This document shows positions 15,804-35,927 of a DNA stretch of 36,214 bases, in pieces. The first letter of the stretch is position 1; each line of letters opens with the position of its first letter. The stretch covers positions 1 to 36,214 of the forward strand of contig JAAXXT010000024.1 in assembly GCA_013334325.1 (NCBI GenBank), read 5' to 3'. A program made the position numbers and the translations under genes. The notes below the pieces were generated by a model. That model was not told the DNA's origin. It searched no databases and worked only from the letters and a program-made list of their open reading frames with translations. This DNA is from Erysipelotrichaceae bacterium (GTDB lineage: Bacteria > Bacillota_I > Bacilli_A > Erysipelotrichales > Erysipelotrichaceae).

Positions 15804-15831
15804 TTTCTCATCTATACCTTAGCCTTTTCAA

Positions 15832-15840
15832 TGATAAAAT
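15832..15840 (+). promoter_or_regulatory. Extended -10 of the GH30 gene, probably leaderless
   Basis: TGATAAAAT (TG-n-TAAAAT), nine bases before the ATG at 15849. No ribosome site and no clear -35. An upstream in-frame ATG at 15831 lies inside this box and is therefore rejected. Confidence 0.55.
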
Positions 15841-15848
15841 ATAACTAC

Positions 15849-17318
15849 ATGAAAACAACCCTATCTTTCCTCATCGTATTGCTGAGTTTAAGTGCTTGTG
15901 TTAAAGAAGAGCCTGAACCAGATCCAGAACCTATACCAGATCTTTATCAAATCACAGATCAAGCCAAGGTATTTTTATCAACCATTGATCAGACCTATGC
16001 CTATACTCAGATCACTGAAGGTATAACACTTTATAATAAGAAAGATGCGCCTAAGATTGGTTTTGACGTATATGTGGATCCCAATAAGACTTACCAAAAT
16101 ATCTTGGGAGTAGGGGCTTCTTTTACAGATAGTTCAGCTTATCTGATCAATCAAGTACTAAGCGAAAATGATCGTAATGGTTTAATGGAAAAGTTGTTTA
16201 GTAAAGAGAATGGGATAGGACTTTCGTTTATTCGTAATCCAATGGGATCTTCTGATTTCTCAAGGACTTTCTATTCATATGATGATCAATCAAAGGGTGT
16301 AAAAGATGAAGATCTAAGTGATTTTAGTATCGCTCATGATCAAGAAGACATCATTCCTTTGGTTAAACAAGCCTTGGATTTGAATCCTGATCTTAAGGTC
16401 ATGATGAGTCCTTGGAGTGCACCAGGTTGGATGAAGAGCTCAGACAGTATGAAAGGTGGATCGTTGAATGCCACCTCTTATGAAAACTATGCCCAATACT
16501 TTGTGAAGACGATCAAAGCCTATCAAGAAGAAGGCATCGATCTATTTGCGATCTCTGTTCAAAATGAACCTTTATATGTCCCTACTAATTATGCAGGTAT
16601 GGGAATTAGTGCTGATCAACAAGCCAAATTCATCAAGGACTATCTAAAACCTGCTTTCGTACAGGAAGGTCTATCGACAAAGATCCTTGCTTATGATCAT
16701 AACTGGGATCGAAAAGATTATCCTTTGACTGTCTTAGAAAAAGCTTTAGATGAAGTCGATGGGGTGGCATGGCATGTCTATGGGGGAAATGTCATATCTC
16801 AAACTGAGGTCTATCGTCAATACCCAGAGAAAGATGTTTATTTTACTGAAGCTTCTGGTGGAGAATGGATCCCGCCTTTTGAAGCTGCTTTTTTATCTCA
16901 AATCAAAACAGGCATCGATGTGTTTAGAAACTACTCTAGGACCTATGTCTTATGGAATATGGCTCTTGATGAGAATAATGGACCTGTAGTACCTGAGTTT
17001 GGGAGATCTACGTGTCGTGGTGTCGTTACCGTGAATCAGAACACCAAAGCGTTGACTTATAATTTAGATTTTCTAACTTTAGCTCATTTTAGCGACTACT
17101 TAGAAAAGGATGCGGTAAGAATCGATTCAACGAAAGCAGAAGGCAACTTTACTTCAGTGGCGTTTATGAATCCTGATAAGACCATAACAATGGTCATCTA
17201 TAACATCAAAGACACCCAACGAGATGCCTTGATTCATATAGGGGATCAAGTCTTGGTTTATAATATGCCAGGTAAATCAGTTGCGACAGTGACCTTTCAA
17301 ACTCAAATCGTTAAGTAA
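15849..17318 (+). CDS. Surface lipoprotein glycoside hydrolase family 30
   Basis: 489 residues from the chosen start. A lipoprotein signal MKTTLSFLIVLLSLSAC places the lipidated cysteine at 17, followed by an acidic Pro/Glu spacer (EEPEPDPEPIPD). The GH30 barrel follows: GVGASFTDSSAYLIN (88-102), FIRNPMGSSDFS (127-138), SPWSAPGWMK (187-196), acid/base Glu240 in ISVQNEP, and nucleophile Glu334 in YFTEASGGEW. The C-terminal beta-domain ends in a typical VYNIKD/VTFQ pattern. GH30 enzymes on Bacillota surfaces cleave beta-1,6-glucan, glucosylceramide or related beta-glucosides. With the beta-glucan locus 6 kb downstream, an endo-beta-1,6-glucanase role is attractive but inferred. It lies alone between two terminators and has no copy of the regulon palindrome. 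Confidence 0.88.
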   Translation: MKTTLSFLIVLLSLSACVKEEPEPDPEPIPDLYQITDQAKVFLSTIDQTYAYTQITEGITLYNKKDAPKIGFDVYVDPNKTYQNILGVGASFTDSSAYLINQVLSENDRNGLMEKLFSKENGIGLSFIRNPMGSSDFSRTFYSYDDQSKGVKDEDLSDFSIAHDQEDIIPLVKQALDLNPDLKVMMSPWSAPGWMKSSDSMKGGSLNATSYENYAQYFVKTIKAYQEEGIDLFAISVQNEPLYVPTNYAGMGISADQQAKFIKDYLKPAFVQEGLSTKILAYDHNWDRKDYPLTVLEKALDEVDGVAWHVYGGNVISQTEVYRQYPEKDVYFTEASGGEWIPPFEAAFLSQIKTGIDVFRNYSRTYVLWNMALDENNGPVVPEFGRSTCRGVVTVNQNTKALTYNLDFLTLAHFSDYLEKDAVRIDSTKAEGNFTSVAFMNPDKTITMVIYNIKDTQRDALIHIGDQVLVYNMPGKSVATVTFQTQIVK

Positions 17319-17446: not shown

Positions 17447-18130
17447 ATGAGAAAACAAATGCTTAATTTTATGTGGTTATTGATTGGGGTCTCGTTGATT
17501 TCGATCGGGATCGCCCTTATGAATAAATCAGGTCTAGGTCAAACTGCGTATTCTGGTTTAGCCACTACGATTGGGCTAGTAACCCATATAAAAAGTGGGA
17601 CAGTCCTGATCATTTTTAATATGAGCTGTGTTATTGGTCAAATTGTCTTCTTAGGAAAGGCCTTCCATAAACTTCAATGGCTTCAGGTGATCGTCGCTTA
17701 TTTAAGTGGACTCATGGTTAATTTTTGGATCTATGATTTTAGTTTAACCTCAACTTATATCCCTGGAAATTATTTAACTCAATGGGTATTAACCATATTG
17801 GGTATTATAGTGATCTCGATTGGGGTCGCCATCGTCATGGCTTCAGAAACCATCAAGATGCCTTTAGAGGCTTTCGTTTTAGTGATCTCAGAAAGAATTA
17901 AGAGACCTTTCGCTCAACTCAGGACCTTAGTCGATGTGATCTCCATCATCTTAGGTTTGTTTCTTATATTGATTTTTCATTTGGGTTTTGAAACTTTAAG
18001 AGAAGGCACTTGGATCTCTTTGGTTCTTTTAGGTTCTTCAATGGGAATTACTTTCCCCTTGGCTCAGAAAGTCTTAAGTCTATCTCATCGAATGTTAGAC
18101 CCACAAGATATTCAAGGTGCTCATAAATGA
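17447..18130 (+). CDS. YczE/YitT-like integral membrane protein
   Basis: A 227-residue protein with five or six hydrophobic segments. The N-terminal region (LLIGVSLISIGIALMNKSGLGQ, then TAYSGLATTIGL) is the hallmark of the YczE group (COG2364): a helix, a short polar turn with Gly-Leu-Gly, then a second segment. A matching repeat IGVAIVMASETIKMPLEAFV is in the second half. The function of the family is not established. The stop overlaps the MFS gene start by four bases (ATGA), so the two are translated together. Confidence 0.75.
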   Translation: MRKQMLNFMWLLIGVSLISIGIALMNKSGLGQTAYSGLATTIGLVTHIKSGTVLIIFNMSCVIGQIVFLGKAFHKLQWLQVIVAYLSGLMVNFWIYDFSLTSTYIPGNYLTQWVLTILGIIVISIGVAIVMASETIKMPLEAFVLVISERIKRPFAQLRTLVDVISIILGLFLILIFHLGFETLREGTWISLVLLGSSMGITFPLAQKVLSLSHRMLDPQDIQGAHK

Positions 18131-19305
18131 CAGAGCTTAAACAACTAAACTCAAGAAAACTTCATATTCAATTCATGGCTATTTTCTTTGTGGCGTATAT
18201 CGCTTATGCGGTCAGTTATACACAGATGTTGCCTTTCTTATCGGATATAGGTTATACCTCGAGTGAGAAAGGTCTCATCTTATCAGGAGCTGCGGTCATA
18301 TCGATCATCGGTCAATTCTTATTTGGATTTTTATGTGATAAATATAAGACCGTTAAGAAGATGTTTTACTTAGCGACCATTGTGTTCATTTTGATCGTGA
18401 CTTGGGCATATTCAGTGACTGAGATCGCCTTCTTCTTTCATTTGATTACTTTATCCCTTATGGGTGGTTTCTTTAGGATCGTCGTAGGTCTTTTAGATTC
18501 ATGGACGATTGAAAGAGATCCTCTTCTACAAAGAAACTACGGGATCATTCGTGCTTTTGGATCTTTAGGTTGGATCATAGGGGCTCCTTATACAGTATGG
18601 GCACTTAGTAAAGGTGGATATGGATCTATAGGACTCAATGTGGGTATCTTAAGCATCTTGACCTTATTGATTGGTGCTACGATGGGGGATGCCCAAAAGG
18701 TGTCTCATCAAGCACCTATCAAGATGGTAGATATCAAACAACTTCTTAAAAAGAAACAATACATCATTCTTTTGATCATCTTGACTCTTATCAATATCGT
18801 TCTGTATGCGGATGCCTATACGATCGTCAATAAGATCCTTGCCTTAGGAGGAACTGCCACAGACATCTCTAATAAATGGGTCCTTCAAGCTTTTATGGAA
18901 CTCCCTCTATTCTTCTTAGGAAGTGTCCTATATAAACGTTTCTCTGCGAAGACTTTACTGATGGTTGGGATATTCATGTTTATGGTGAGATTTCTTCTTA
19001 GTGCCCTTGCGACTTCTGCAGCTCAATTGGTGATGATCTCTGCGACTCAACTGGTGACTTTTCCGTTTATCCTTTTGTCTTCTAAACAATTGATCGATAG
19101 TGAATCACCAGCCCATTTAAAATCAACAGGACAACTTTTAGGCTTAGCGATGTATAGTGGTCTATCCGCTTTGATTTCCCCATTGATGTCTGGTTTTCTC
19201 GTTGATTGGATCGGAACCGATCAAACCTTGATTTTCTTTGGTTTACTCTGTTTGGTTCCTTTGGGTTTATCCTTGTGGTATCGAAAGATGAAAGCTGCCT
19301 ATTAA
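18127..19305 (+). CDS. MFS transporter (MFS_1-like, LacY/HcaT branch)
   Basis: 392 residues with about 12 hydrophobic segments in two halves. The loop 2-3 motif is GFLCDKYKTVKK, a variant of the MFS signature GxxxDRxxRR. YGIIRAFGSLGWIIGAPYTV in segment 5 is typical of the LacY/nucleoside-proton-symporter-like group that handles sugars or small acids. Loop 6-7 is charged. The substrate is unknown. It is coupled to the YczE-like gene and is followed by a terminator. Confidence 0.85.
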   Translation: MTELKQLNSRKLHIQFMAIFFVAYIAYAVSYTQMLPFLSDIGYTSSEKGLILSGAAVISIIGQFLFGFLCDKYKTVKKMFYLATIVFILIVTWAYSVTEIAFFFHLITLSLMGGFFRIVVGLLDSWTIERDPLLQRNYGIIRAFGSLGWIIGAPYTVWALSKGGYGSIGLNVGILSILTLLIGATMGDAQKVSHQAPIKMVDIKQLLKKKQYIILLIILTLINIVLYADAYTIVNKILALGGTATDISNKWVLQAFMELPLFFLGSVLYKRFSAKTLLMVGIFMFMVRFLLSALATSAAQLVMISATQLVTFPFILLSSKQLIDSESPAHLKSTGQLLGLAMYSGLSALISPLMSGFLVDWIGTDQTLIFFGLLCLVPLGLSLWYRKMKAAY

Positions 19306-19309
19306 ACTG

Positions 19310-19332
19310 AAGAGCTCAATGAGCTCTTTTTT
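19310..19332 (+). terminator. Terminator after the MFS gene
   Basis: AAGAGCTC, AAT loop, GAGCTCTT, T run. Confidence 0.92.
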
Positions 19333-19351: not shown

Positions 19352-19380
19352 TTGATTTTATATTCCACAAAGTATATATT
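19352..19380 (+). promoter_or_regulatory. Promoter of the PadR gene
   Basis: TTGATT (19352-19357), a 17-base spacer, TATATT (19375-19380). Confidence 0.6.
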
Positions 19381-19395
19381 ATACTTGTAGAATAT
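19360..19395 (+). promoter_or_regulatory. Long imperfect palindrome over the PadR promoter (probable autoregulatory operator)
   Basis: The left arm (19360-19376) and right arm (19380-19395) agree as ATATTC-Y-ACAA-(A)-GTATA read inward, with one substitution and one extra base. It covers the spacer, the -10 box and the start point, as expected for PadR autorepression. Confidence 0.65.
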
Positions 19396-19407
19396 AAAGG
19401 AGACCTT

Positions 19408-19959
19408 ATGTCACTTAAACATGGCTTATTAGGATTACTGAATTATGGAGATATGACAGGATATGAACTCGATAAAGCGTTCAAAGTATCACTGAATTTC
19501 TTTTGGCAAGCACAGACCAGTCAGATCTATAGAGAACTGAATGCGATGGAGAAACAAGCCTGGTTGATCTCACAGATCATTCCTCAAACAGGTAAGCCCA
19601 ATCGAAAGCTCTATAAGATCACTGATTTAGGTAGAGCTGAACTAAAGAAATGGCTCTCTAAGAAGGATCTTGAAGAAGATCTCAACGTAAAAAATGTGTT
19701 TTTAATGAAGATGTTTTTCTCGGCTGAAGTCAATGTCTCTGAAACCATAGACACACTGAAGCGCTATAAGGCACAGTGTTTAGGTGATCTACAAGCGATG
19801 AGTCAAACAGGTTCAGTTATAAGTGATTATGGCCAAAATTTAGAAAACAAGAAAAGCATGGTCTATTGGGCCTCTACCGCAACCTTTGGGGTATATTATC
19901 TCAATATGTGTGTTAAATGGGCTGAAGATACAATCAAAACATTGGAGGAAATCTCATGA
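19408..19959 (+). CDS. PadR-family transcriptional regulator
   Basis: A 183-residue protein. The PadR winged helix occupies residues 1-90: SLKHGLLGLLNYGDMTGYEL, QTSQIYRELNAMEKQAWL, GKPNRKLYKITDLGRAELKKWL. A C-terminal dimerisation domain of the Vir_act_alpha_C type is at 95-180. PadR proteins repress detoxification or membrane-protein genes and often respond to phenolics or hydrophobic compounds. The stop overlaps the next gene's start by four bases, so the regulator is coupled to the flavodoxin-fusion gene, its likely target. AAGGAG precedes the ATG. Confidence 0.92.
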   Translation: MSLKHGLLGLLNYGDMTGYELDKAFKVSLNFFWQAQTSQIYRELNAMEKQAWLISQIIPQTGKPNRKLYKITDLGRAELKKWLSKKDLEEDLNVKNVFLMKMFFSAEVNVSETIDTLKRYKAQCLGDLQAMSQTGSVISDYGQNLENKKSMVYWASTATFGVYYLNMCVKWAEDTIKTLEEIS

Positions 19960-21572
19960 AGATTCTCGTAATTAATGGAAGTCCAAAAGGCAACGCAAGC
20001 AACACCTTAAAATTGACTCGATCTTTTTTAGAAGGTATGAACTCTGTTGAGCAACACGACATAGAATTCATCGATCTCGTTAGAACCAATATCAGTCCTT
20101 GTACAGGCTGTTATGGGTGTTGGACGAAAACACCTGGGACCTGTGTCTTAAAAGATGATATGGCGGATTATATTCCTAAGGTCTTAGCGGCTGATCTTTT
20201 GATTTGGAACTTTCCTTTGTATTATTTTGGGATGCCTTCTAAAACAAAGATGTTTCTAGATCGTTTACTTCCAACGACACTTCCTTATATGGTAGAAAGA
20301 GAAGCTGGTGGAACGACTCATCCTTATCGTTATGAATTAAGTCATCAAAAACACCTATTGATCTCAACCAGTGGTCTTTATTCGACCCAAAATAATTATG
20401 ATTCACTTCTTAAACAATTTGAGATCTTATATTATGGTCACTACGATAAGATCATCTGTACAGAAGGAGAACTGTTTAGAGTTCCTCAGTTGAGTAAACG
20501 AACCAATCAATATTTAGGCTACGTTAAACAAGCAGGGATCGAGTATGCCTCATCAGGTAAGATATCTGAAGAGAGTAAGAATCATCTAGAAGAGTTGTTG
20601 TATCCTGCCCAAGAGTTCATTCAGATGGCGGATGCGAGCTGGAAGATCGCTGAATCTAAAGAGAGCCCAAAAACAGAAAAAACAGCTTTGAATTTTATGA
20701 GACAAATGGGGGCGACATTTAATAAAGAAGCGGTAAGTCCTACTGAACACTTCGTCATCGAAATGAAATATACAGATTTAAATGAAAGTTATCAATTCGT
20801 CATCGAAGATGGGAAATGTACCTTACTCACCCAAGATTTTAAACCGAATACGGTCTTGATCGAGACCCCTTATGAGATATGGATGAAGATCTCTGAAGGG
20901 AAGTTGAATGGAGCTCAAGCGATGATGGATAAGCTCTATAAAGTCACTGGAAGCTTTGAGACGATGATGAAGATGAATACCTTATTTGGAAGCAATGAAG
21001 AATCAAATCAAGCGCCTGTGACACAAGTTAAGGAAAAGAAAAGTGTCATGTTGATGCTCTTGGTACCTTGGATATCATTATGGATCTTGTTGCCTCTACA
21101 ACCAAAGATCGCTGGCTTGATCGCGATCACCCTTTGTGCCTTATTACCTTTACTAAGCGTCAAGATCAAACAAACCATCTATGAAAAGATTGGTTATGTC
21201 TTAGTGTGTTTATTAGGCTTAGGAGCGTTGATGGGGATTGAGACCTTGATCTTGGTGCTCTTATCATATTTCTTGTTTGGGGCTTTATGGTTTATCTCTA
21301 CCTTTACGAAGATCCCACTTACGGCGTATTATTCTAGTGCTTCTTTGAATGGGGAAGAAGCCTATAAGAATCCTTTGTTTATAAAAACAAATCGTATCTT
21401 GACGATGATGTGGGGAATTCTCTACATCCTATCTTCAGTATTATCATATTTCCTAATGAAAAGTTTCTTAGCAGAATTTACAGGTTTGATCAACTATGCG
21501 ATCCCATCTGGAATGGGACTATTTACCGCATGGTTTGCGAAATGGTATCCTGCGAAAGTCGCACGAGGTTAA
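19956..21572 (+). CDS. Three-part fusion: flavodoxin domain with CxxCxxC...C cluster, SCP2-like domain, polytopic membrane domain
   Basis: 538 residues. Residues 1-200 are a flavodoxin-like NAD(P)H/FMN oxidoreductase: VINGSPKGNASNT FMN loop and YYFGMPSKTKMFLDR. Cysteines 49, 52, 55 and 63 (CTGCYGCWTKTPGTC, then LKDDM) match the compact cysteine motif C-x2-C-x2-C-x4-7-C of [4Fe-4S] iron-sulfur flavoproteins. Residues 265-346 look like an SCP2 sterol-carrier domain (FVIEDGKCTLLTQDFKPNTV, IWMKISEGKLNGAQAMM). Residues 363-538 contain about six hydrophobic segments. The arrangement suggests a membrane-bound redox protein acting on a lipid-like ligand; this is inferred, and cluster binding needs proof. 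It is cotranscribed with PadR and followed by a terminator. Confidence 0.75.
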   Translation: MKILVINGSPKGNASNTLKLTRSFLEGMNSVEQHDIEFIDLVRTNISPCTGCYGCWTKTPGTCVLKDDMADYIPKVLAADLLIWNFPLYYFGMPSKTKMFLDRLLPTTLPYMVEREAGGTTHPYRYELSHQKHLLISTSGLYSTQNNYDSLLKQFEILYYGHYDKIICTEGELFRVPQLSKRTNQYLGYVKQAGIEYASSGKISEESKNHLEELLYPAQEFIQMADASWKIAESKESPKTEKTALNFMRQMGATFNKEAVSPTEHFVIEMKYTDLNESYQFVIEDGKCTLLTQDFKPNTVLIETPYEIWMKISEGKLNGAQAMMDKLYKVTGSFETMMKMNTLFGSNEESNQAPVTQVKEKKSVMLMLLVPWISLWILLPLQPKIAGLIAITLCALLPLLSVKIKQTIYEKIGYVLVCLLGLGALMGIETLILVLLSYFLFGALWFISTFTKIPLTAYYSSASLNGEEAYKNPLFIKTNRILTMMWGILYILSSVLSYFLMKSFLAEFTGLINYAIPSGMGLFTAWFAKWYPAKVARG

Positions 21573-21581
21573 TCGTTTATA

Positions 21582-21602
21582 AAAGCACTCATAGAGTGCT
21601 TT
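21582..21602. terminator. Bidirectional terminator between the fusion gene and the ROK kinase gene
   Basis: AAAGCACTC, ATA loop, GAGTGCTTT. A and T flanks serve both convergent genes. Confidence 0.85.
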
Positions 21603-22624: not shown

Positions 22625-23620
22625 ATGATCGATATGAAGCAAGTCGCCAAGTTGGCTGGGGTATCCGTGGCGACAGTATCCAAGACATTGAATAATTATA
22701 GAGAAGTCAGTGATGAAACCAAGATCAAGATCATGAAGATCGTTGATGAATTGGGCTATATTCAAAATTCTAGTGCTAGATCTTTAAGCACTAAGCGTTC
22801 AAATCTAATTGGGATCGTTTATTCGGAACATCTTGGGATCGGTCTAGAACACTATTACTTTTCAGGTGTCTTAGAAGCTTTTAAAAAAGAAGTTGAAAAC
22901 GCTGGTTATGATGTCGTCTTCATCAACGGAAGAGACATAGGTTATCTCAAAAAATGTAGAGTAAGAGGGGTCGATGGGGTCTTCGTCGTCACCGCTGATA
23001 CTTCTGATAAAGGTTTAGTTGATTTATTTAATGCGGATATCCCTTGTGTAACGACAGATACACCTTGGAATAAAGTACCTTTGGTCTATTCAGATAATGT
23101 CCAAAGCTCTATAAACGCAGTTAAATATCTTCATTCATTAGGTCATACACGAATCGCCCATATCGCTGGACCTCAAGCATCCATCGCTGGTCGTGAACGT
23201 TTAGATGGCTATCGTCAAGGAATGATGGAAGAAAACTTATCTTATGATCCTGATATGGTGGTCTACGCCAATGAGTATAACTCCATCTCAGGTTATGGCG
23301 CTATGAACATTCTTTTATCCAATGAGAATCCTCCTACAGCGGTCTATATCATGTGTGACTTATCCGCAGTAGGTGCGATACAAGCCATAAGAGAAGCTGG
23401 TTTAAAGGTAGGAAGAGACATCAGTATTATGGGTTTCGATGATATCCAAATCGCCGCTAACCTAATACCTCCATTAACCACCATTAGACAAGATAGAGTT
23501 GCGATCGGTCATGCGTTGGCCGCAACCTTAATAAAACTTATGAATAAAGAAGAAGTACAATTGGTCTCTAAGATTCCATGTACAATCATCGAAAGAGAAT
23601 CCACTAAAGTAAAAAAATAG
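22625..23620 (+). CDS. LacI-family transcriptional regulator of the glucan locus
   Basis: A 331-residue protein with the LacI helix-turn-helix at 2-24 (MKQVAKLAGVSVATVSKTLN) and hinge LSTKRSNLIGIVY. A periplasmic-binding-like effector domain follows: AHIAGPQASIAGRERLDGYR, then PTAVYIMCD and ISIMGFDDIQIAANLIPPLTTI. It lies between the ROK gene and the GH16-GH3-GH2 operon. Four palindromes of the type LacI proteins bind occur in the promoters around it, so it is the best candidate regulator of the locus. The inducer is probably a glucan oligosaccharide imported by the ABC system; this is inferred. Confidence 0.93.
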   Translation: MIDMKQVAKLAGVSVATVSKTLNNYREVSDETKIKIMKIVDELGYIQNSSARSLSTKRSNLIGIVYSEHLGIGLEHYYFSGVLEAFKKEVENAGYDVVFINGRDIGYLKKCRVRGVDGVFVVTADTSDKGLVDLFNADIPCVTTDTPWNKVPLVYSDNVQSSINAVKYLHSLGHTRIAHIAGPQASIAGRERLDGYRQGMMEENLSYDPDMVVYANEYNSISGYGAMNILLSNENPPTAVYIMCDLSAVGAIQAIREAGLKVGRDISIMGFDDIQIAANLIPPLTTIRQDRVAIGHALAATLIKLMNKEEVQLVSKIPCTIIERESTKVKK

Positions 23621-23640
23621 ACAACTGTGTCTATTTTTTT
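23611..23640 (+). terminator. Terminator after the LacI gene
   Basis: 13-bp perfect stem (core TAGACA/TGTCTA, loop ACTG) with A7 and T7 arms. It overlaps the LacI stop codon. Confidence 0.9.
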
Positions 23641-23652
23641 ATGAAGGGGGTA

Positions 23653-23661
23653 TGCTATAAT
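23653..23661 (+). promoter_or_regulatory. Extended -10 promoter of the GH16-GH3-GH2 operon
   Basis: TGCTATAAT, followed after nine bases by operator 2. Confidence 0.7.
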
Positions 23662-23669
23662 ATTTTTAC

Positions 23670-23683
23670 CGAAAGCGTTTTCA
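23670..23683. promoter_or_regulatory. LacI-type operator 2 (GH16-GH3-GH2 operon)
   Basis: CGAAAGCGTTTTCA. It spans the predicted start point directly before the AGGAGG ribosome site, a position suited to blocking initiation. Confidence 0.82.
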
Positions 23684-23693
23684 GGAGGAACAT

Positions 23694-24410
23694 ATGTCAA
23701 AATGGAATTTGGTGTTTGAAGAAGATTTTTCCAAGCAGACCAGTTTAGATTTAACACATTGGACAGTTGATGTGGGAGATCATGGAGGTGGAAACAATGA
23801 AGCTCAGTATTATACCGCAGGTACACATAACATCATCTTCGAAGACGGAGCTCTTCAACTAGAAGGTCGTAAAGAAAAATATAAATCCAAAGAATATACC
23901 TCAGCTAAGATCGTAACCAAAGACAAGATCGAATGGAAATATGGTCGATTTGAGATCTGTGCGAAGATTCCCCAAGGAAAAGGTACATGGCCAGCGATTT
24001 GGACTTTAGGTCATAAACTTCCTAAAGAAGGATGGCCAGAAATGGGTGAAATCGACATTATGGAACACGTAGGTTGGAACCAAGACATCATCCATTTTAG
24101 TCTACATTCCAAACTTTATAATCATAAGATAGGTAATCAAGCGACCTTCTTTACGAAGATCGAAAATGTTTCTTCCTCATATAAAACCTATGTCTTAGAA
24201 TGGGATGAAACTAAGATCTCATTCTTTGTTGATGATCGACATATGTTGACCGTCCTTAAGAAAGATTATGCAGATTCATGGCCTTTTGATAAACCACACT
24301 ATCTTATCTTAAACCTTGCCTTAGGTGGAGGCTGGGGTGGAGAAATCGATGACACATGTTTACCTCAACGTTTATCGATAAAGAGTGTAAAGGTCTTTCA
24401 GAAAGACTAA
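23694..24410 (+). CDS. GH16 endo-beta-glucanase (laminarinase type), no signal peptide
   Basis: A 238-residue enzyme consisting of the catalytic jelly roll only. The start MSKWNLVFEEDFSK is at the AGGAGG site and no hydrophobic leader is present. The GH16 signature GEIDIMEHVG has nucleophile Glu119, Asp121 and acid/base Glu124 in the ExDxxE (beta-bulge) form typical of laminarinases. GNNEAQYYT and KIPQGKGTWPAIWTLG also match GH16 laminarinases. The expected reaction is endo-cleavage of beta-1,3 (or 1,3-1,4) glucan. Most homologues are secreted; this one should act in the cytoplasm on imported oligosaccharides. First gene of a three-gene operon. Confidence 0.92.
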   Translation: MSKWNLVFEEDFSKQTSLDLTHWTVDVGDHGGGNNEAQYYTAGTHNIIFEDGALQLEGRKEKYKSKEYTSAKIVTKDKIEWKYGRFEICAKIPQGKGTWPAIWTLGHKLPKEGWPEMGEIDIMEHVGWNQDIIHFSLHSKLYNHKIGNQATFFTKIENVSSSYKTYVLEWDETKISFFVDDRHMLTVLKKDYADSWPFDKPHYLILNLALGGGWGGEIDDTCLPQRLSIKSVKVFQKD

Positions 24411-24412
24411 TT

Positions 24413-26608
24413 ATGGATATTAAAAAGATCATCTCTCAAATGACTTTAGAAGAGAAACTATTGATGCTTGGGGGCAAAGATGGCTGGCACTTCTATGGGG
24501 TCGAAAGATTAGGTATAGAAGATGTGCGTGTATGTGACGGACCACATGGGATCAGAGTCCAAACTGAAAATGAACATGTCAATTTACCCGCAACCAATTT
24601 CCCAACGGCTTCTGCTTTAGCGTCTACTTTTAATCCTGATCTAATCAAATTGACAGGAGAAACCATAGGTAAAGAATGTCGCCATTATGGGGTCCAAGTT
24701 TTATTAGGTCCTGGTGTCAATTTAAAAAGATCTCCTTTAGCGGGTCGTAATTTTGAATACTATTCAGAAGATCCTTATCTCAGTGGTAAGATCGCAGCTT
24801 CTTTTATTAATGGGGTCCAATCTCAAAAAGTAGGGACTTCTCTTAAGCATTATGTCGCCAATGAACAAGAAACGAGTCGTTTATTCATCAGTTCTAAAGT
24901 AGATGAGAGAACTTTTCATGAGCTCTATTTGACACCTTTTGAGATGGCCATAAAAGAAGCCAATCCTTGGACCATCATGGGTTCTTATAATCGAATCAAT
25001 GGGACCTATGGATGTGAGAATGAACATACCCTCAATAAAACATTAAAGAAAGACCTCGCTTATGATGGGCTCGTCGTTTCTGATTGGGGAGCCGTCAATG
25101 ATAAACTGGATTCTCATCGTTATGGATTAGACATACAGATGCCTGGTCCTGTAGCGTTGGATGATCGTTTAAAGAAAGCTGTCTTAAGTGGAGATCTACC
25201 TTTATCCATCATCGATGATCACGTAGAGCGTTGTTTAAGACTCAATCAACGCGTCTATAAAAATGGTGATAATTGTGGATTGGATCTAGAGGCTGATCAT
25301 AAGATCGCCCAGAAGGTCGCTTTAGAATCCATCGTCTTACTTAAGAATGAAAACATACTTCCTTTAAAATCGAATACTAAACTCGCAGTCATAGGGCGCT
25401 TTAGTGATGATCAAGTCCGTTATAACGGTGGTGGTAGTTCATGGTTAAATGCCTATAGAGTTGAAAGACCTTTAGAGTTTTTAAAAGCCAAGACGAAAGT
25501 TATTTATGCGCCTGCTTATGATCAAGAAAAAGTAACACGCAAATCTACTGATGAAGCTCTCTTAGCTGCATCTAAAGCGAAAGTGGTCTTATTCTTTACA
25601 GGTACTACAGCCTCGATGGAATCAGAAGGTTTTGATCGTTCATCGATCGATCTTCCTCATCAGCATCTCGCTTTACTTAAAAAAATCCATAAGATCAATC
25701 CCAACATCGTCGTTATCTTAAACAATGGTGCTGCAGTCGATCTAAGAGAAGTACAGCCTTATTGTAAAGCCATTGTAGAAGCTTGGTTACTAGGCTCTGC
25801 GTCTGGTCAACCTTTAGTAGACATCTTGTTTGGGGATCATAATCCTTCAGGTAAGCTTTCAGAAACTTTCCCACTTCAGTTGGAACATACCCCAGCTTAT
25901 GGAAATTTCCCTGGCTTAGGTGATGAGATCGTTTATAGTGAAGGTCTATTGAGTGGCTATCGTCATTATGATACACGTCAATTAAAAGTCATGTATCCTT
26001 TTGGATATGGCTTAAGCTATACCAGTTTTAAATTATCTGATCCTGTCTTATCACAAACGAAGATTACTAAAGATGAGACCTTAACTTTAAGTGTTACTTT
26101 GAAAAATACAGGAAAAAGAAAAGGTCAACAAGTCGTTCAAGTCTATCTAAAAGATCTTGAATCCTATTTGCCTCGTCCACTAAAAGAACTTAGAGCATTT
26201 AAGAAAGTTGAACTAAAGGCAGGAGAATCTCAAAAGATAAGCTTTACTTTATCTGAAAGAGATTTTGCGTATTATGTGCCTCATCTAGGACGATTCGCAG
26301 TGGAGAGTGGTTTATTTGAAGCCTGTATAGGTTTCTCCTGTGAAGAGATCTTGTGTAGTGTTAAATTCGAAGTGAACTCAGATGATAAGGTAAGACCTCA
26401 TCTAAGCTTGGATTATCCTTATAATCGATGGATTAAATATCCTTATGAAAATACTCAAGTCAAGAAACTAGTTGAGATGACGAGAAATCCTTTCTGGTGG
26501 GAAACAGAGCCACCTTTACGTCGATGGCTCAAAGTGCTTAAACTTGAATTCAATTGGAGCGACTCTAAACTAGAAGAAGTCAAAGCCATGTTGATGGAGG
26601 AAGAATGA
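24413..26608 (+). CDS. GH3 beta-glucosidase, cytoplasmic
   Basis: A 731-residue enzyme from the start MDIKKIISQMTLEEKLLML, two bases after the GH16 stop; the open frame further upstream overlaps GH16 and is not used. Domains are the GH3 N-terminal barrel (CDGPHGIRVQ, GRNFEYYSEDP, KHYVANEQE; nucleophile Asp224 in VVSDWGAVND), the C-terminal alpha/beta sandwich, and a fibronectin III-like domain (GQQVVQVYLKD). A roughly 70-residue helical tail with RNPFWWETEPPLRRWL is at the end. It releases glucose from beta-glucan oligosaccharides. There is no clear ribosome site: a small GTCTTT/AAAGAC hairpin covers the end of GH16, so translation is likely coupled. Confidence 0.92.
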   Translation: MDIKKIISQMTLEEKLLMLGGKDGWHFYGVERLGIEDVRVCDGPHGIRVQTENEHVNLPATNFPTASALASTFNPDLIKLTGETIGKECRHYGVQVLLGPGVNLKRSPLAGRNFEYYSEDPYLSGKIAASFINGVQSQKVGTSLKHYVANEQETSRLFISSKVDERTFHELYLTPFEMAIKEANPWTIMGSYNRINGTYGCENEHTLNKTLKKDLAYDGLVVSDWGAVNDKLDSHRYGLDIQMPGPVALDDRLKKAVLSGDLPLSIIDDHVERCLRLNQRVYKNGDNCGLDLEADHKIAQKVALESIVLLKNENILPLKSNTKLAVIGRFSDDQVRYNGGGSSWLNAYRVERPLEFLKAKTKVIYAPAYDQEKVTRKSTDEALLAASKAKVVLFFTGTTASMESEGFDRSSIDLPHQHLALLKKIHKINPNIVVILNNGAAVDLREVQPYCKAIVEAWLLGSASGQPLVDILFGDHNPSGKLSETFPLQLEHTPAYGNFPGLGDEIVYSEGLLSGYRHYDTRQLKVMYPFGYGLSYTSFKLSDPVLSQTKITKDETLTLSVTLKNTGKRKGQQVVQVYLKDLESYLPRPLKELRAFKKVELKAGESQKISFTLSERDFAYYVPHLGRFAVESGLFEACIGFSCEEILCSVKFEVNSDDKVRPHLSLDYPYNRWIKYPYENTQVKKLVEMTRNPFWWETEPPLRRWLKVLKLEFNWSDSKLEEVKAMLMEEE

Positions 26609-28893
26609 ACTATAGAACCTTACCTTCAACCTTTTCATTAGTTCAACTCAATGAAAAGGAGCCTCATTATATTCCAATGCAATGTAAAGAAGTCTATCCT
26701 TATTTTGAAAAACAAGGATTTCCTACGATACAGCTACATGGGACTTGGAAAAAGATCAGAGTCAATGATCCTAAGCTCACCATGCGTATACGTGATGTCA
26801 ATGCGCTTGATAAACTTAAACAAGAAGTGCCAGGAATTACCTTAAGAGATTTTAATGATCAACATCTTCTTGATCATGTCTTACCTGGAGTTGAGAATAG
26901 AATAGGTCATAAAGCAGCTTCTCATGGGGAAGGTATGGAAACCTATGAGGCAGGGGTATGGTATAGAAAAATCATCAAAGTCAAAAAACAAGCCAATAAG
27001 ATCTACTTGTTTAAAGCCCTCTCGATGGGCAGTGTCGCTGATCTTTTCATCAATGATATCCATATAGGGACCCATGAAGGAAGCTTTAATCCTTTCTCCT
27101 TTGATGTAACTAAAGCTCTTGTTGAAGGCGAGAATGTCTTCGCCCTAAGAGTTCACAATATCCCGTGGGGCTCAAGAATCGATACGATCCCTGCTCAAGC
27201 AGGATCAGATTACTTCAACTATACAGGTGTCATCCATGATTTCTGGATCGAAGAGGTTCCTCTCGTATCTGTGCGTAGAGTTGATCTTGTCTCTAAGAGC
27301 TTAAAAGAAACAGAACTTACACTTATCGTCGTCAATAAATCTTCACTCGATCAAACACTTACCCTGAATTTTGAAGTCTTTTCAACAAATATCACCTCAA
27401 AGAATCTTGGCTCTGATTACGCTAAGGATCTCATTGATGCCTCATTGTTTAAACTACAAGCTAAAACCATCGATGTGAAATCCAATTCTTTAGAACGTGT
27501 TTCTTTTAAGATCGACACAAGTACACTAAAACCTTGGGGCTTACTAGATCCTCATCTATATGCGTTAAAGACCTCGACGAATGAAGAGACCCTGTATCAT
27601 GAATTTGGGGTCAGGACCTTATCCACCAACAAGCACTCTATTTTATTAAATGGGAAAGCAGTCTTTCTCAATGGGATGGCCCGTCATGAGGAATCTCTTG
27701 ATAAAGGAAGAAGCATAAGTCATGAAGACATTGTTTCGGAATGTCTAGAATTAAAGAAGATGAATTTGAATTTTTCTCGTACAGGTCATTATCCTAATCA
27801 TCCTTTGACCTATCGTGTTTTAGATCGATTAGGGATGGCTTCTATGATGGAAGTACCTTTGTGGCAACATGAAAACGAACACTTCAAAGCTCAGATCAAT
27901 CGACGCATCGATCAACAGATGTGGAGAGAAATGATCTTCACCCAAAGAAATAGACCTTCTGTATTTTTATGGTCTACACAAAATGAATGTAACGGAAATG
28001 ATTATCGATTGGCCTACAATCGTCTATTGGTCAGTGATCTAAGAAAGTGCTTTGATGATGGTCGCTTAACGACCCAATCTTCCGCAGCGGATCGACCAGG
28101 CTACAGTGATCCATCTATGGACCCTTTGGATGTCTTAGGCTTTACTTTATACTTTGGGATCTTTCATGGACAGCCTCATAATACAGAAACACCTTACGTC
28201 GACAATGCCTATCTTGGTACCCTTGATTATCTGAAAGCAGCCTATAAGACCCATAAGAAACCTATCGTGGTGAGTGAATATGGGCTATGGAGCTCAGCTG
28301 GAGATGGGGTCCAATTGTCGGTCATCATGAATAATCTGCGTGCGTTTATTGAACTACGAAACCTAAATTTCGATGGATCAGAAAGCGAAAGAGGATTCAT
28401 CACAGGGATCAATTATTGGACGATAAATGACTGGTTTGTCAATCATAATGCGTGGATCCAATCTATGGGCTTCAAAACCCTCGAAAGAAAGGATAAACCC
28501 ATCGTTTTAAGGGTAAAACCCCTCTATGAACGCCTAATTCATCCTCGTTTAGGGGTCAATTCTGATCATAATCTGTTTAGAGGACATCGATACATCACAG
28601 GACCAAATGCGGTGCTTTATCTCAACGCAAACGGTTTCGATGCATCAAAATGGCCATTTTTGGTCATAAAAGCGGATGATCCTATGTTTAATGATGGATT
28701 CGAATTGAACATCTCAAATAGGAAAGGCGAAATACAGACTCTCAAAGCTGAAAGAATGGATGAAAACATGGTATTCCATTTATGGATGCTAAATCCGGAC
28801 TTCCTTAGAGATATGATAGCGCTTACCATATCGACCACCTCTTCAGAACGAAGAATCCACCTTAGAAGAATCGATTGTCGAACAACATTATAA
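26605..28893 (+). CDS. GH2-family glycoside hydrolase, cytoplasmic
   Basis: A 762-residue protein. An N-terminal sugar-binding beta-sandwich (about 40-220, with GVWYRKI and GSFNPFSFDVT) is followed by an immunoglobulin-like domain (220-340) and the GH2 barrel. The barrel has acid/base Glu461 in LWSTQNECNGND and nucleophile Glu558 in IVVSEYG. The Asn-Glu pair is intact. No signal peptide is present. GH2 includes beta-galactosidases, glucuronidases, mannosidases and some beta-glucan-active enzymes, so the bond cleaved is not fixed by sequence. The start overlaps the GH3 stop by four bases (ATGA) with a GGAGG site. No terminator follows, so read-through into the binding-protein gene is possible. 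Confidence 0.87.
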   Translation: MNYRTLPSTFSLVQLNEKEPHYIPMQCKEVYPYFEKQGFPTIQLHGTWKKIRVNDPKLTMRIRDVNALDKLKQEVPGITLRDFNDQHLLDHVLPGVENRIGHKAASHGEGMETYEAGVWYRKIIKVKKQANKIYLFKALSMGSVADLFINDIHIGTHEGSFNPFSFDVTKALVEGENVFALRVHNIPWGSRIDTIPAQAGSDYFNYTGVIHDFWIEEVPLVSVRRVDLVSKSLKETELTLIVVNKSSLDQTLTLNFEVFSTNITSKNLGSDYAKDLIDASLFKLQAKTIDVKSNSLERVSFKIDTSTLKPWGLLDPHLYALKTSTNEETLYHEFGVRTLSTNKHSILLNGKAVFLNGMARHEESLDKGRSISHEDIVSECLELKKMNLNFSRTGHYPNHPLTYRVLDRLGMASMMEVPLWQHENEHFKAQINRRIDQQMWREMIFTQRNRPSVFLWSTQNECNGNDYRLAYNRLLVSDLRKCFDDGRLTTQSSAADRPGYSDPSMDPLDVLGFTLYFGIFHGQPHNTETPYVDNAYLGTLDYLKAAYKTHKKPIVVSEYGLWSSAGDGVQLSVIMNNLRAFIELRNLNFDGSESERGFITGINYWTINDWFVNHNAWIQSMGFKTLERKDKPIVLRVKPLYERLIHPRLGVNSDHNLFRGHRYITGPNAVLYLNANGFDASKWPFLVIKADDPMFNDGFELNISNRKGEIQTLKAERMDENMVFHLWMLNPDFLRDMIALTISTTSSERRIHLRRIDCRTTL

Positions 28894-28911
28894 AAAAAAT
28901 ATACAAAACAC

Positions 28912-28940
28912 TTGAAAGCGTTTTCGTAATTTGCTAATAT
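28912..28940 (+). promoter_or_regulatory. Promoter of the binding-protein gene
   Basis: TTGAAA (28912-28917), a 17-base spacer, and TAATAT (28935-28940) preceded by TGC, an extended -10. A GGATTA/TAATCC inverted repeat (28942-28957) lies at the start point. Confidence 0.75.
28913..28926. promoter_or_regulatory. LacI-type operator 3 (binding-protein gene)
   Basis: TGAAAGCGTTTTCG. It overlaps the -35 box and spacer of the promoter at 28912-28940, a classic repressor position. It also fits a CcpA cre site closely. Confidence 0.82.
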
Positions 28941-28971
28941 AGGATTAGAATTAATCCATTAGGAGGAAACA

Positions 28972-30579
28972 ATGAAGAAAATTCTACTAGCTGTTATCGC
29001 ATTAGCATTCATTGGCTCAACTCTAACCGGATGTTCAAGCTACAAAGCCCTCGACAAAACAATCGAAGGTAGTATCGATGTTATGATGTGGTCCGGCGAC
29101 GGCACCTACATTGAAGACCTCGGTCACAAAGACTTGGCACCGGAAGATCTAAAAGGCCAGAATAACGCATCTGTATATGCAGTCGCTAAAGCCTTCAACG
29201 CAATTTATCCGAACGTTAAGATCAACGTTTATGCAAAATCAGGCGGTCCTGGAACTGCTGCTGAATGGGTTCAAGAAATTGAAAACTTCAAAGTAGACCA
29301 TGGGAAATATCCTGATCTCTATGCTGCTATGGATCTTCCTGGCGATATCGCTCGTGGATTCGTTGCTGACTTATCCGTATTTAGTAGTGATCCTTTATAC
29401 AAATCATTCAACAAATCCATCTTGGGTATGATGAACTACTACGGCTTCCAAGCTGGTTTACCACAGTTCTTACAACCTTGGGGTATCTTCGTTAATAAAG
29501 CATTGGCTGAAGACTATAATATCGAAGTTCCAGAACCAAACTGGACCATCGCTGAATATACTGATTTCATTACTTCTGCTAAACCTGAAGATGGTTTCTA
29601 CGGTGCAATGGATGTTGATATCGACATCATTCGTACTGGCGTTACCACCATCGAACAACAGATGAAGAACTACAGCGGAACTGGTGACTATGTCAACTTG
29701 GCTTCCGATGAAGTTAAAGCCTTGTTGGACTATGTTCCTGAATGGGCTTCAGTTGCTGTATGGCCTCAAAATGATGCAGGCAACGTATCTGGCGACTTTA
29801 TGAACGCACACTGGTGGTGGGGTCATAAATTATTCGCTGACAACGTATTGTTGACCAACGCTGGCGATCCTTGGATGATGGGCGATTGCGCTAATCCAGA
29901 AGATCCTTGGGGCGGTTCATGTAAATCTTCCGACTGGGATATCTATCCACGTCCGTCTACAGATTATCAAGACAACACTGTTGGTGTAGTATTAGATCCA
30001 ATGGCTGTCTACAATCATTGTATGGATGACGGCGATGCTGCTTGTACAACTGAAGAAAATGCTGCCACAAAATTGGCGTATACCTTCACAGCTTTCATGG
30101 CTGGCGATACAGCTGCATGGCAGGCAAGAGCTGATCAAACATTCTTGGATGGAACAACTGTTAAATCCGCAATGAATGATTCTCTACCTTTCGTTACTGG
30201 CAAAGCATTCGACGAACAAATGGAAATCTGGTATCAACCAGCCATCCACAACCGTTTTGCTGATGCTGCTAAGATGCCTGGTTGGCACCTGATTCTCGAC
30301 ATCTGGGAAAAAGGTCAAGTATGGGCAATCTCCGATAAAGCTGCTTTATGGTTCTATACTGAAAATGGCGAAAAGAAAACCATCATCAGCGAATTCCTAA
30401 GCATGAATAATCCGGACATCGCTGGCGCAACCCGCGTATCCCCAAGCTTCCCGAATGAAGTTAAAGCAAGATTGGCTGATTGGAATACATCCGCTAATGA
30501 ACGCTTCCAGATCGCTGAAACAGCACTGAGAGATGCTTTAAAAGAATTCTACGGCTTCAAAGACGCAGACTTCAAATAA
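28972..30579 (+). CDS. Lipoprotein sugar-binding protein of an ABC importer
   Basis: A 535-residue extracellular solute-binding protein (family 1). The lipoprotein signal MKKILLAVIALAFIGSTLTG is followed by lipidated Cys21. The mature part is rich in aromatics (WPQNDAG, AHWWWGHKLF, WQARADQTFL), as expected for an oligosaccharide cleft. Four cysteines form two close pairs, 306/317 and 350/358, unusual in such proteins; disulfides or metal-binding loops (NHCMDDGDAACTTEEN) are possible. AGGAGG precedes the ATG. It forms its own transcription unit with operator 3 and a strong terminator, the usual set-up for a binding protein made in excess over its permeases. Codon use (GGC, GCT, TCC, AAC) differs from the flanking enzymes, pointing to high expression. 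Confidence 0.92.
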   Translation: MKKILLAVIALAFIGSTLTGCSSYKALDKTIEGSIDVMMWSGDGTYIEDLGHKDLAPEDLKGQNNASVYAVAKAFNAIYPNVKINVYAKSGGPGTAAEWVQEIENFKVDHGKYPDLYAAMDLPGDIARGFVADLSVFSSDPLYKSFNKSILGMMNYYGFQAGLPQFLQPWGIFVNKALAEDYNIEVPEPNWTIAEYTDFITSAKPEDGFYGAMDVDIDIIRTGVTTIEQQMKNYSGTGDYVNLASDEVKALLDYVPEWASVAVWPQNDAGNVSGDFMNAHWWWGHKLFADNVLLTNAGDPWMMGDCANPEDPWGGSCKSSDWDIYPRPSTDYQDNTVGVVLDPMAVYNHCMDDGDAACTTEENAATKLAYTFTAFMAGDTAAWQARADQTFLDGTTVKSAMNDSLPFVTGKAFDEQMEIWYQPAIHNRFADAAKMPGWHLILDIWEKGQVWAISDKAALWFYTENGEKKTIISEFLSMNNPDIAGATRVSPSFPNEVKARLADWNTSANERFQIAETALRDALKEFYGFKDADFK

Positions 30580-30587
30580 TCGTAATT

Positions 30588-30610
30588 AGGCACCTTAGGG
30601 TGCCTTTTTT
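30588..30610 (+). terminator. Terminator after the binding-protein gene
   Basis: AGGCACC, TTAG loop, GGTGCCT, T run. Confidence 0.93.
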
Positions 30611-30629
30611 ATGATTAGTCGAGAAATTG

Positions 30630-30643
30630 CGAAAACGCTTTCT
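30630..30643. promoter_or_regulatory. LacI-type operator 4 (GH4-transporter operon)
   Basis: CGAAAACGCTTTCT. It abuts and slightly overlaps the upstream edge of the -35 box of the GH4 promoter. Confidence 0.8.
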
Positions 30644-30671
30644 TGATTTATAAGATGAATTTTGATAAAAT
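30643..30671 (+). promoter_or_regulatory. Promoter of the GH4-transporter operon, probably leaderless
   Basis: TTGATT (30643-30648), a 17-base spacer, and TAAAAT (30666-30671) preceded by TGA. The start codon is only nine bases after the -10 and has no ribosome site. Confidence 0.7.
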
Positions 30672-30680
30672 AAATGTATT

Positions 30681-32084
30681 ATGAAAACAAACATAAATAC
30701 GACTAAAATTGTGGTCATAGGTGCAGGTAGTGCCTCCTTTGGTTTGGTTAATTTAGGAGCCATTATTCGCCATCCTCAACTTAAAAGAATTCGTTTATGT
30801 TTGGTCGATATCAACGCATCTGGTCTACATAGTATCACTCAATTAGCTCAGAGAATGAATCGTGAATGGAAGGCTGAAATGACGATTACTTCGACCACAG
30901 ATCGTACTGAGGCTTTGATCGAGGCGAACTATATTATCTTGTCTGTTGCGGTAGATCGTGAATCCTGTTGGAAAAGCGATGTCGATATAGCACTAAAATA
31001 TGGAATACGACATTATGGAGAAAACGGTGGTCCTGGAGCACTGATGCATACGGCGAGAAACATTGCCATCATCATGCCGATTTTAAGGGATATCGAACGA
31101 TTATGTCCACAGGCTATCGTCATGAATTTTACGAATCCTGTACCTCGAATATGTATCGCCGCAGCTCGTTACACCAAGGTTAAAATGGTGGGTATATGTC
31201 ATCAAATCGATTTTGGATATTTGATGGTTGCGAAGATCTTTCAAGAAGAATATGGATTTAAGGTACCTAAAGATTATCGCTTTACTTGGGAGGGGGATTG
31301 GGGGACCTATGGAGACATGGTGAGCCAAGCCAAGGAGAGATTTACCTTACTGGCTGCCGGGGTCAATCATTTCACTTTCTTCTTATCTCTGATCGATAAA
31401 CAAACAGGACAAGATCTTTTACCTAAGTTCAAAGAAAAATTTAAAAATTCTTATCCTGAATTTGAGCCTTATACACGAGAGATCTTATCTACCTTAGACA
31501 TCTTACCTGTATCAGGAGATTGTCATATGTTGGAATACTTCCCCTTTACACATAACGAAGCTAAGAAAGCTTGGGAACACTATGATATCCAAATGTATCC
31601 CTTGATGAAAGCTGAAGGTGATCGTCACCAGATGTGGAGAGAAATCGATGATTTGGCTGCTGGAAAAGGTTCCATCGATCATCTACTTCATACCCATACA
31701 GAAAGAGCAGAACAGATCATCGTAGCGATGATGAACGATGAGCCTTATCATGATCAAGCGGTCAACTTACCTAATCTTGGTTATATCCAAAACTTACCCT
31801 TAGATGCCATCGTCGAAGTACCTGCATCGTTTATGAAAAACTCGATCAAAGGTGAGACTATAGGAAAAGTTCCTGAACTTGCTGCCTTGTGGTGTCGACG
31901 TGAAATAGAAAGTGCAGAACTTGCGGTCAAAGCAGCTGTCAATGGAGATGAAGCCATACTCCTACAAGCCTTACTCATCAATGGGATGATCGATGATATC
32001 CCAAGCGCAAAAGCAATGCTAAAAGACTATCTTAAAGCCAATACACAGTATCTTCCTCAGTTTAATAAAAAAGGAGAAGCTTGA
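30681..32084 (+). CDS. GH4-family NAD- and metal-dependent glycosidase
   Basis: A 467-residue protein with an N-terminal Rossmann motif VVIGAGSASFG (11-21). GENGGPGALMHTARN (113-127), NFTNPVPRI (149-157), GICHQ with metal-ligand Cys173, and AAGVNHFTF with His230 are the GH4 catalytic set. These enzymes cleave alpha or beta glycosides by oxidation at C3 and elimination, using NAD+ and Mn2+. The sequence looks closer to the alpha-galactosidase/alpha-glucosidase (MelA/AglA) side than to 6-phospho-beta-glucosidases; substrate unproven. It is the first gene of the transporter operon. Its stop shares one base with the next start (TGATG). Confidence 0.9.
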   Translation: MKTNINTTKIVVIGAGSASFGLVNLGAIIRHPQLKRIRLCLVDINASGLHSITQLAQRMNREWKAEMTITSTTDRTEALIEANYIILSVAVDRESCWKSDVDIALKYGIRHYGENGGPGALMHTARNIAIIMPILRDIERLCPQAIVMNFTNPVPRICIAAARYTKVKMVGICHQIDFGYLMVAKIFQEEYGFKVPKDYRFTWEGDWGTYGDMVSQAKERFTLLAAGVNHFTFFLSLIDKQTGQDLLPKFKEKFKNSYPEFEPYTREILSTLDILPVSGDCHMLEYFPFTHNEAKKAWEHYDIQMYPLMKAEGDRHQMWREIDDLAAGKGSIDHLLHTHTERAEQIIVAMMNDEPYHDQAVNLPNLGYIQNLPLDAIVEVPASFMKNSIKGETIGKVPELAALWCRREIESAELAVKAAVNGDEAILLQALLINGMIDDIPSAKAMLKDYLKANTQYLPQFNKKGEA

Positions 32085-34987: not shown

Positions 34988-34988
34988 G

Positions 34989-35927
34989 ATGAACATCGTT
35001 AAACGTGTACGACGAGTCTTTATCGAAAAGGCTGGTGAATCTACTTTCAATGATTACCTAACGATCTTCTTATTGCTTCTGCCTTATGCTTTATTGTTTT
35101 CTTTGTTTGTAGCTATACCTGTAGCCTTAGCGATTGGTCTATCATTGACTTATTTTAATACGATACAGGTTCCTGAATTTAAAGGCTTCCTCAACTATAT
35201 TATGCTTTTGACTCAAGATGAAGTCTTCTTAAAATTCGTCTTACCTAACACCTTTAAATATGCCTTGATTATTGGACCAGGCGGATACTTCTTATCGTTT
35301 ATCTTGGCTTGGATGTTGGCTCAGATTACTCCTAGGATGAGAACGATCATCGCTTTGGCTTTGTATACTCCATCGATGGTTGGTGGTGTCTTTATTTCAG
35401 TTGTATGGAGAACCTTGTTTTCAGGAGATGAAGCAGGATACATAAATGCGACACTGATGCAATGGGGATGGATCGTAAGACCCATTCAGTTTCTACAATC
35501 CCCACAATATTTAATGAATATTATGATCATTGTTGGATTATGGTCTGCGATGGGGATAGGCTTCCTTGCGATGTTGGCCGGGATACTAAACACCAACGAA
35601 GAACTGTATGAAGCAGCCTATATCGATGGGATCAAGAATAAACTTCAAGAAGTCATCTATATCACGATTCCTTCGATGAGAAGCCAAATGCTCTTTGGAG
35701 CGGTTATGGCCATCGTTGGGGCTTTCAATAGTGGGTGGATCGGAGTTGCCTTATCAGGCACCAATCCTACACCTCAATATTCAGGTCAATTGATCATCAA
35801 TCATATTGAAGATTATGGCTTTATACGATATGAAATGGGATATGCTGCAGCTGTATCAGTAGCTTTGCTTTTGATCATTTGGGGTTTTTCTAAAGTAGCT
35901 TACCGCTTGTTTGGAGAAAGGGACTAA
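34989..35927 (+). CDS. Sugar ABC transporter permease (MalF-like)
   Basis: A 312-residue membrane protein with six hydrophobic segments after a charged N terminus ([18 protein letters not shown]). The ATPase-contact EAA loop is [45 protein letters not shown] (first segment) and [17 protein letters not shown] are typical of CUT1 permeases. It starts one base after the lipoprotein stop, with AAGGAG ahead. It pairs with the truncated permease that follows. Confidence 0.93.

Follow-up and report, generated by a model that had tools for sequence, protein, structure and literature searches.

The window analysed here, a stretch of 36,214 nucleotides of DNA from an Erysipelotrichaceae bacterium, harbours two adjoining genes on its forward strand: one for a 183-amino acid PadR-family regulator of the long type (19408–19959) and one for a 538-amino acid protein that unites a flavodoxin domain, an SCP2 domain and a six-helix membrane domain (19956–21572). 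The two ORFs share the sequence ATGA, a 4-nt overlap, and lie where the first-pass annotation, made from the sequence alone, had placed them. One terminator-like hairpin follows the upstream MFS gene on the forward strand and splits it from the padR unit (19309–19329), and a second, intrinsic terminator-like hairpin is located directly 3' of the fusion gene on the same strand (21582–21602); the transcription unit therefore probably comprises padR and the fusion gene, and nothing else. A forward-strand promoter-like site, TTGATT-17-TATATT (9 of 12 matches), is situated at 19352–19380, and an alternative one ending in TATACT at 19357–19385; nine such sites were found in the region where 6.7 are expected, and the match at 19352–19380 is weak when taken alone.

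Directly upstream of the padR unit lies an MFS sugar-transporter-like gene (18127–19305), which in turn shares a 4-nt overlap with a gene for a YitT/DUF6198-like membrane protein (17447–18130; a sub-threshold match). The segments 15831–17318 and 22625–35927 encode glycoside hydrolases of families GH30, GH16, GH3, GH2 and GH4, along with permeases, solute-binding proteins and a regulator of the LacI type. This region is likely to serve the utilisation of beta-glucan or a related polysaccharide, and to bear no relation to the padR-fusion unit.

The winged-helix domain of the regulator is well above the Pfam cut-off for PadR (55.6 bits against 27; 5.5e-15) and is accompanied by a Vir_act_alpha_C domain (9e-11); its solved sequence relatives are AphA (1yg2) and the PadR set 5x11–5x14. 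A 22-bp palindromic, operator-like site, TATATTATACTTGTAGAATATA, occupies positions 19375–19396, overlaps the likely −10 region and matches the motif TATATTNYACWWGTRNAATATA with 0 mismatches. The first-pass annotation had named 19360–19395 as the interval at which to check PadR binding, which comes close; the conserved palindrome actually extends from 19375 to 19396, and an imperfect copy at about 19359–19380 overlaps it. Across loci the consensus of the palindrome upstream of padR reads TATATTCCACAAGTGGAATATA. At three or fewer mismatches TATATTNYACWWGTRNAATATA occurs 66 times, in 51 of the 65 padR upstream regions (35 kb), a frequency that is inflated in-sample since the motif was built from the very loci that were scored. 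At the same threshold there are no occurrences in the remaining 492 kb of these loci, and the palindrome is likewise absent (≤3 mismatches) upstream of the fusion gene in loci without PadR. This clean background and the absence at PadR-less loci are independent support for the candidate operator motif. In the whole 1.95-Mb genome the only perfect TATATTNYACWWGTRNAATATA site is the one at 19375–19396, and with this single perfect site the simplest reading is that PadR is a local auto-repressor acting at this candidate operator. A wider PadR regulon was considered and rejected: a site with two mismatches is positioned inside an ORF, and a control search with the reversed pattern yields equally many weak sites.

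The pairing of the two genes is conserved. Of the 85 full-length loci examined, 65 have a padR gene immediately preceding the fusion gene, frequently with the same 4-nt overlap, and together with the conserved operator-like palindrome this bears out the coupling of the fusion protein to PadR that was suspected from the window alone. At about a fifth of the fusion loci PadR was not seen, some of these being cut by contig ends. Among the fusion loci examined no conserved neighbour other than PadR was found. In one locus (L061:1741–2010) a C-terminal remnant of PadR, apparently broken by a frameshift, precedes an intact fusion gene.

Pfam, an AlphaFold model and 80 full-length homologues agree that flavodoxin, SCP2 and about six membrane segments are joined in one 538-residue protein, the unusual combination on which the first-pass annotation had remarked. 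The flavodoxin domain (residues 1–200; 19956–20555, forward strand) adopts an azoreductase/NQO-like fold according to VIA-align and Foldseek and carries the FMN-binding motif NGSPKGxxSN; Pfam detects Flavodoxin_2 at residues 1–143 (8.9e-19) as well as FMN_red (4.2e-16). The SCP2 domain, earlier claimed at residues 265–346, is present with Pfam boundaries at 256–344 (20721–20987, forward strand; 5.6e-11, 43.1 bits against a cut-off of 21.3). The last 170 residues match no Pfam family; the AlphaFold model and the predicted topology define here a six-helix membrane domain (residues 366–537; 21051–21566, forward strand). An AlphaFold2 model built with 80 sequences (pLDDT 92.3, pTM 0.83) displays the flavodoxin fold up to residue 200, helices up to residue 253, an alpha/beta domain with the SCP2-type layout and six membrane helices (366–378, 383–402, 408–425, 430–448, 473–502 and 506–537), and its confidence is low in the linker at 350–357; structure prediction, suggested earlier as a check on the architecture, is thus in its favour. 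A lysine-rich loop at 403–407 and a basic C-terminal end hint at a cytosolic location for both termini of the membrane domain, and the flavodoxin and SCP2 domains are predicted to face the cytosol. Foldseek matches the fusion model to the alkylsulfatase Pisa1 (2yhe), which carries an SCP2-like C-terminal domain. The fusion resembles SCP2 proteins in its own above-threshold SCP2 domain; in other proteins SCP2 usually either stands alone as a carrier or is attached to enzymes of other kinds. A Blautia SCP2-like protein, small and different from the fusion, has been reported to bind cholesterol (PMC13029680).

An assembly artefact or a chance joining of adjacent genes, with the parts encoded separately elsewhere, would undermine this architecture, and we consider it next to impossible. 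Homologues are full length across 85 loci, many genera and independent assemblies, isolates included, and these homologues do not have their parts split between genes. Alignment A2 contains the flavodoxin domain in 80 of 80 members and SCP2 in 78 of 80. Among 295 genomes of the order, all eight matches to the membrane part reside within frames of 539–609 aa, and none of these genomes encodes the membrane part without flavodoxin and SCP2. The split-gene reading is refuted by the full-length homologues, and no evidence in support of it was found.

Scanning 84,980 species genomes yielded 374 confirmed relatives, of which the best 80 were aligned and cover essentially the whole protein. The hosts of these best 80 are mostly Clostridia, including Oceanirhabdus, Lutispora, Clostridium, Lachnospiraceae, Oscillospiraceae and Christensenellaceae; further hosts are Erysipelotrichaceae and metagenome-assembled genomes (MAGs) labelled Treponema, Spirochaetales, Desulfovibrio and others, although labels from such outlying phyla call for caution. 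The hosts are anaerobes of gut, rumen and sediment, amongst them Roseburia and many Lachnospiraceae MAGs from ruminants. Within the order to which the window belongs the fusion has a sparse, patchy distribution: it was found in 8 of 295 genomes and in none of the seven others from the window's genus. The window copy is 55% identical to that of Oceanirhabdus, as opposed to 40–45% for copies from its own family, and in the tree it groups with clostridial copies (83/93), apart from own-family members (97/97); identity and tree placement together suggest that it was acquired separately by horizontal transfer. No record in the plasmid collection covers 80% of the fusion query, the matches being confined to the flavodoxin part. 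The three-part architecture is real, widespread, made of known domains and apparently undescribed; the open literature searched contains no paper in which SCP2, flavodoxin and PadR come together.

Among solved folds, those of azoreductases, indigo reductase, NQO1 and NQO2 come nearest to the flavodoxin part. For azoreductases and NQO1/NQO2 the comparison gives Z 15–17 and an rmsd of 2.4–3.5 Å over about 180 residues, and AzoR (8h4j/7n2w) aligns over 182 residues with a VIA-align Z of 17.0 and an rmsd of 2.8–2.9 Å. Lipophilic quinones, azo dyes and drugs are the substrates of these reductases. AzoR and NQO1/NQO2 share the fold of the fusion flavodoxin at 14–21% identity in the aligned region, but they are devoid of SCP2 and membrane domains, and the solved relatives shown as alignments lack the cysteine motif. 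The best sequence match in the PDB is the flavone reductase FLR (7d38; 7.7e-12 with profile A1), a flavodoxin-fold flavone ene-reductase of the gut that is reported with FMN and flavin absorption (PMC7862272). FLR (PDB 7d38–7d3b) resembles the fusion in its FMN fold and in a similar CxxCxxC...C..DD region, and differs from it as a soluble protein of 310 aa with its own C-terminal tail in place of the SCP2 and membrane domains. Its cysteine spacing is C-x2-C-x2-C-x11-C, in contrast to x7 in the fusion; the main text of the FLR paper makes no mention of cysteine or iron-sulfur, nor is PadR found in its text (PMC7862272).

The cysteine motif C49-x2-C52-x2-C55-x7-C63 (CTGCYGCWTKTPGTC; 20100–20144, forward strand), already recognised in the flavodoxin domain by the first-pass annotation, is invariant in the 80 named-genome homologues and the window protein (81 of 81). 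So is C168 (about 20457–20459), which is located outside the motif. Residue 139 (about 20370–20372) is a cysteine in 97.5% of the homologues and a serine in the window protein. Within a flavodoxin fold, the x7 spacing fits the motif of iron-sulfur flavoproteins (Isf), printed as CX2CX2CX5-7C in PMC3164229 and taken more broadly here as CX2CX2CX(4-7)C, and C49, C52, C55 and C63 could be envisaged as ligands of a [4Fe-4S] cluster. Such a cluster may nonetheless be absent from the fusion, because FLR with its x11 spacing is reported with FMN only. The likeness to Isf of the Methanosarcina thermophila type comprises the flavodoxin fold, the compact cysteine motif and anaerobic hosts. Isf is, however, a soluble single-domain protein; SCP2 and six helices are added in the fusion, whose flavodoxin domain, at about 240 aa including the C-terminal helices, exceeds that of Isf in length and forms its own clade. 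Generic Isf-like flavodoxins of 175–190 aa from related genomes fall into a separate clade (100/98).

The nearest unfused relatives are proteins of about 245 aa in which the CWx(R/K)TxGxC motif of the fusions recurs; the tree unites them with the fusions in one clade (100/98), at about 35% identity over 235 aa. They have neither SCP2 nor a membrane part, no PadR was seen adjoining them, and they reside in KAS-FabG-FabZ-ACP-Acc operons of fatty acid synthesis (FAS). Five such loci encode flavodoxin-like proteins with the motif CxxCxxCWxRTxGxC (L130:4995–5717, L132:1537–2274, L134:1477–2232, L135:1501–2244 and L154:1477–2217), in four of them directly after FabZ. On a Lachnospira eligens plasmid the gene order is ACP, KAS, FabG, FabZ, FabD, AccD, an AccA-like ORF, flavodoxin and PlsX. 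Four genomes of one genus, from another family of the window's class, have FabG, FabZ and flavodoxin in succession, with ACP and AccB directly next in three of the four; wherever the reading extended further, the remaining Acc subunits and FabD turned out to belong to the operon too. No other enoyl reductase was seen within the five FAS operons examined, and two of the four whole genomes examined (G308 and G724, 96% and 98% complete) show no full-length FabK and no FabI-like SDR. The unfused sisters are thus candidate enoyl-ACP reductases of a new class. This is not proven, because the other two genomes (G678 and G129) do contain a FabK relative, and because FabV, which was not found in the genomes examined, was searched for without a positive control. 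The position of the sisters in FAS operons and the ene-reductase activity of FLR suggest that the ancestral activity of the clade was the reduction of C=C bonds, which falls short of a demonstration; the reaction of the fusions may differ from that of the sisters because their identity is only about 35%.

As a matter of anatomy, the enzyme first proposed, a redox protein of the membrane that has a domain for hydrophobic ligands and is controlled by PadR, is well supported by domains, topology, operon and operator; its chemistry and its ligand class we infer. In the general picture that we favour, and to which we would assign slightly less than an even chance, the locus is a ligand-induced two-gene operon for an SCP2-fed, membrane-anchored reductase of the ene/quinone type acting on a lipophilic substrate. 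Judging from the position and conservation of the palindrome over the promoter, PadR would repress its own operon and, following the pattern of the PadR family, would let go of the DNA upon binding a small lipophilic or aromatic compound, thereby serving as the sensor of the ligand class. The six helices are predicted to anchor the fusion with its flavodoxin and SCP2 domains facing the cytosol, and may form part of a lipid path. SCP2 would extract a hydrophobic substrate from the inner leaflet for reduction at the FMN of the NQO/azoreductase-like domain. The bond reduced would most likely be an activated C=C or a quinoid one, and NAD(P)H or ferredoxin would supply the electrons, which possibly travel via a [4Fe-4S] cluster at C49/C52/C55/C63. 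The likely role would be detoxification of a harmful lipophilic molecule, for example a quinone, an oxidised or unsaturated lipid, or a xenobiotic of plant or drug origin. With reductase, lipid carrier and membrane anchor in one chain, the protein would be a compact device for altering lipids, greasy drugs and plant compounds within the gut.

Several narrower or competing accounts have to be weighed against this picture. The sisters' placement at the expected enoyl-reductase position of FAS operons, the precedent of FLR as an ene-reductase (PMC7862272) and the gut and rumen hosts, with Roseburia and the ruminant Lachnospiraceae MAGs amongst them, would all suit a lipid ene-reductase that saturates unsaturated or conjugated fatty acids (biohydrogenation) or another membrane lipid, SCP2 taking the role of ACP. 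The fusion loci, however, are not tied to lipid genes, and we deem this account unlikely. The Butyrivibrio CLA reductase contains iron and has a size of about 60 kDa, properties that were not used as evidence here. As a possible identity of the fusion this enzyme was considered and set aside: the description of it is that of a membrane-associated, not an integral, protein, and its gene sequence has already been reported (PMC4478896), which also speaks against the lipid account. We also judge it improbable that the protein is a membrane-tethered, Isf-type scavenger reducing O2/H2O2 or nitro-drugs, with SCP2 and the helices acting mainly as a localisation module: the CX2CX2CX7C spacing fits Isf (PMC3164229) and Isf genes rise in metronidazole-resistant Entamoeba (PMC4419850), but SCP2 is retained in 78 of 80 homologues, beyond what a passive anchor would lead one to expect, the nearest folds are quinone and azo reductases, and the generic Isf-like flavodoxins belong to a separate clade. 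A plain FMN quinone or azo reductase without a cluster, its cysteines being structural or redox-sensing, could invoke FLR with its related motif and FMN only; four invariant cysteines with the x7 spacing of Isf, unlike the x11 of FLR, speak against it, and we consider it very doubtful.

Beyond the favoured picture of an inducible, SCP2-fed reductase, the clade as a whole might constitute an unrecognised class of flavodoxin-fold ene-reductases, in which the unfused members act as enoyl-ACP reductases in some gut Firmicutes and the fused members are PadR-controlled, integral-membrane lipid ene-reductases with SCP2 replacing ACP as the acyl or isoprenoid carrier; we regard this broader proposal as unlikely. 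The link to FAS operons is the most valuable lead to emerge from the locus and amounts to a concrete, testable claim on a missing enoyl-reductase class.

The membrane domain has no relative in the PDB, the best Foldseek match having an E value of 1.6 and VIA Z scores of at most 7.6 falling on unrelated helical bundles. The VC0807 family, named by no paper in the open literature searched, weakly matches 30 of the 80 members (best 2.1e-7, below cut-off), and the window protein reaches 20.1 bits where the curated VC0807/DUF3159 cut-off is 65. Hhalign of the six-helix part against six stand-alone DUF3159-like proteins returned a probability of 1%, with both profiles shallow; kinship with VC0807/DUF3159 is suggested, not confirmed. 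Stand-alone DUF3159/VC0807-like membrane proteins are encoded in the window's own genome (C33; L125:1429–2112) and elsewhere in its genus and family (L123, L124, L126, L127 and L128).
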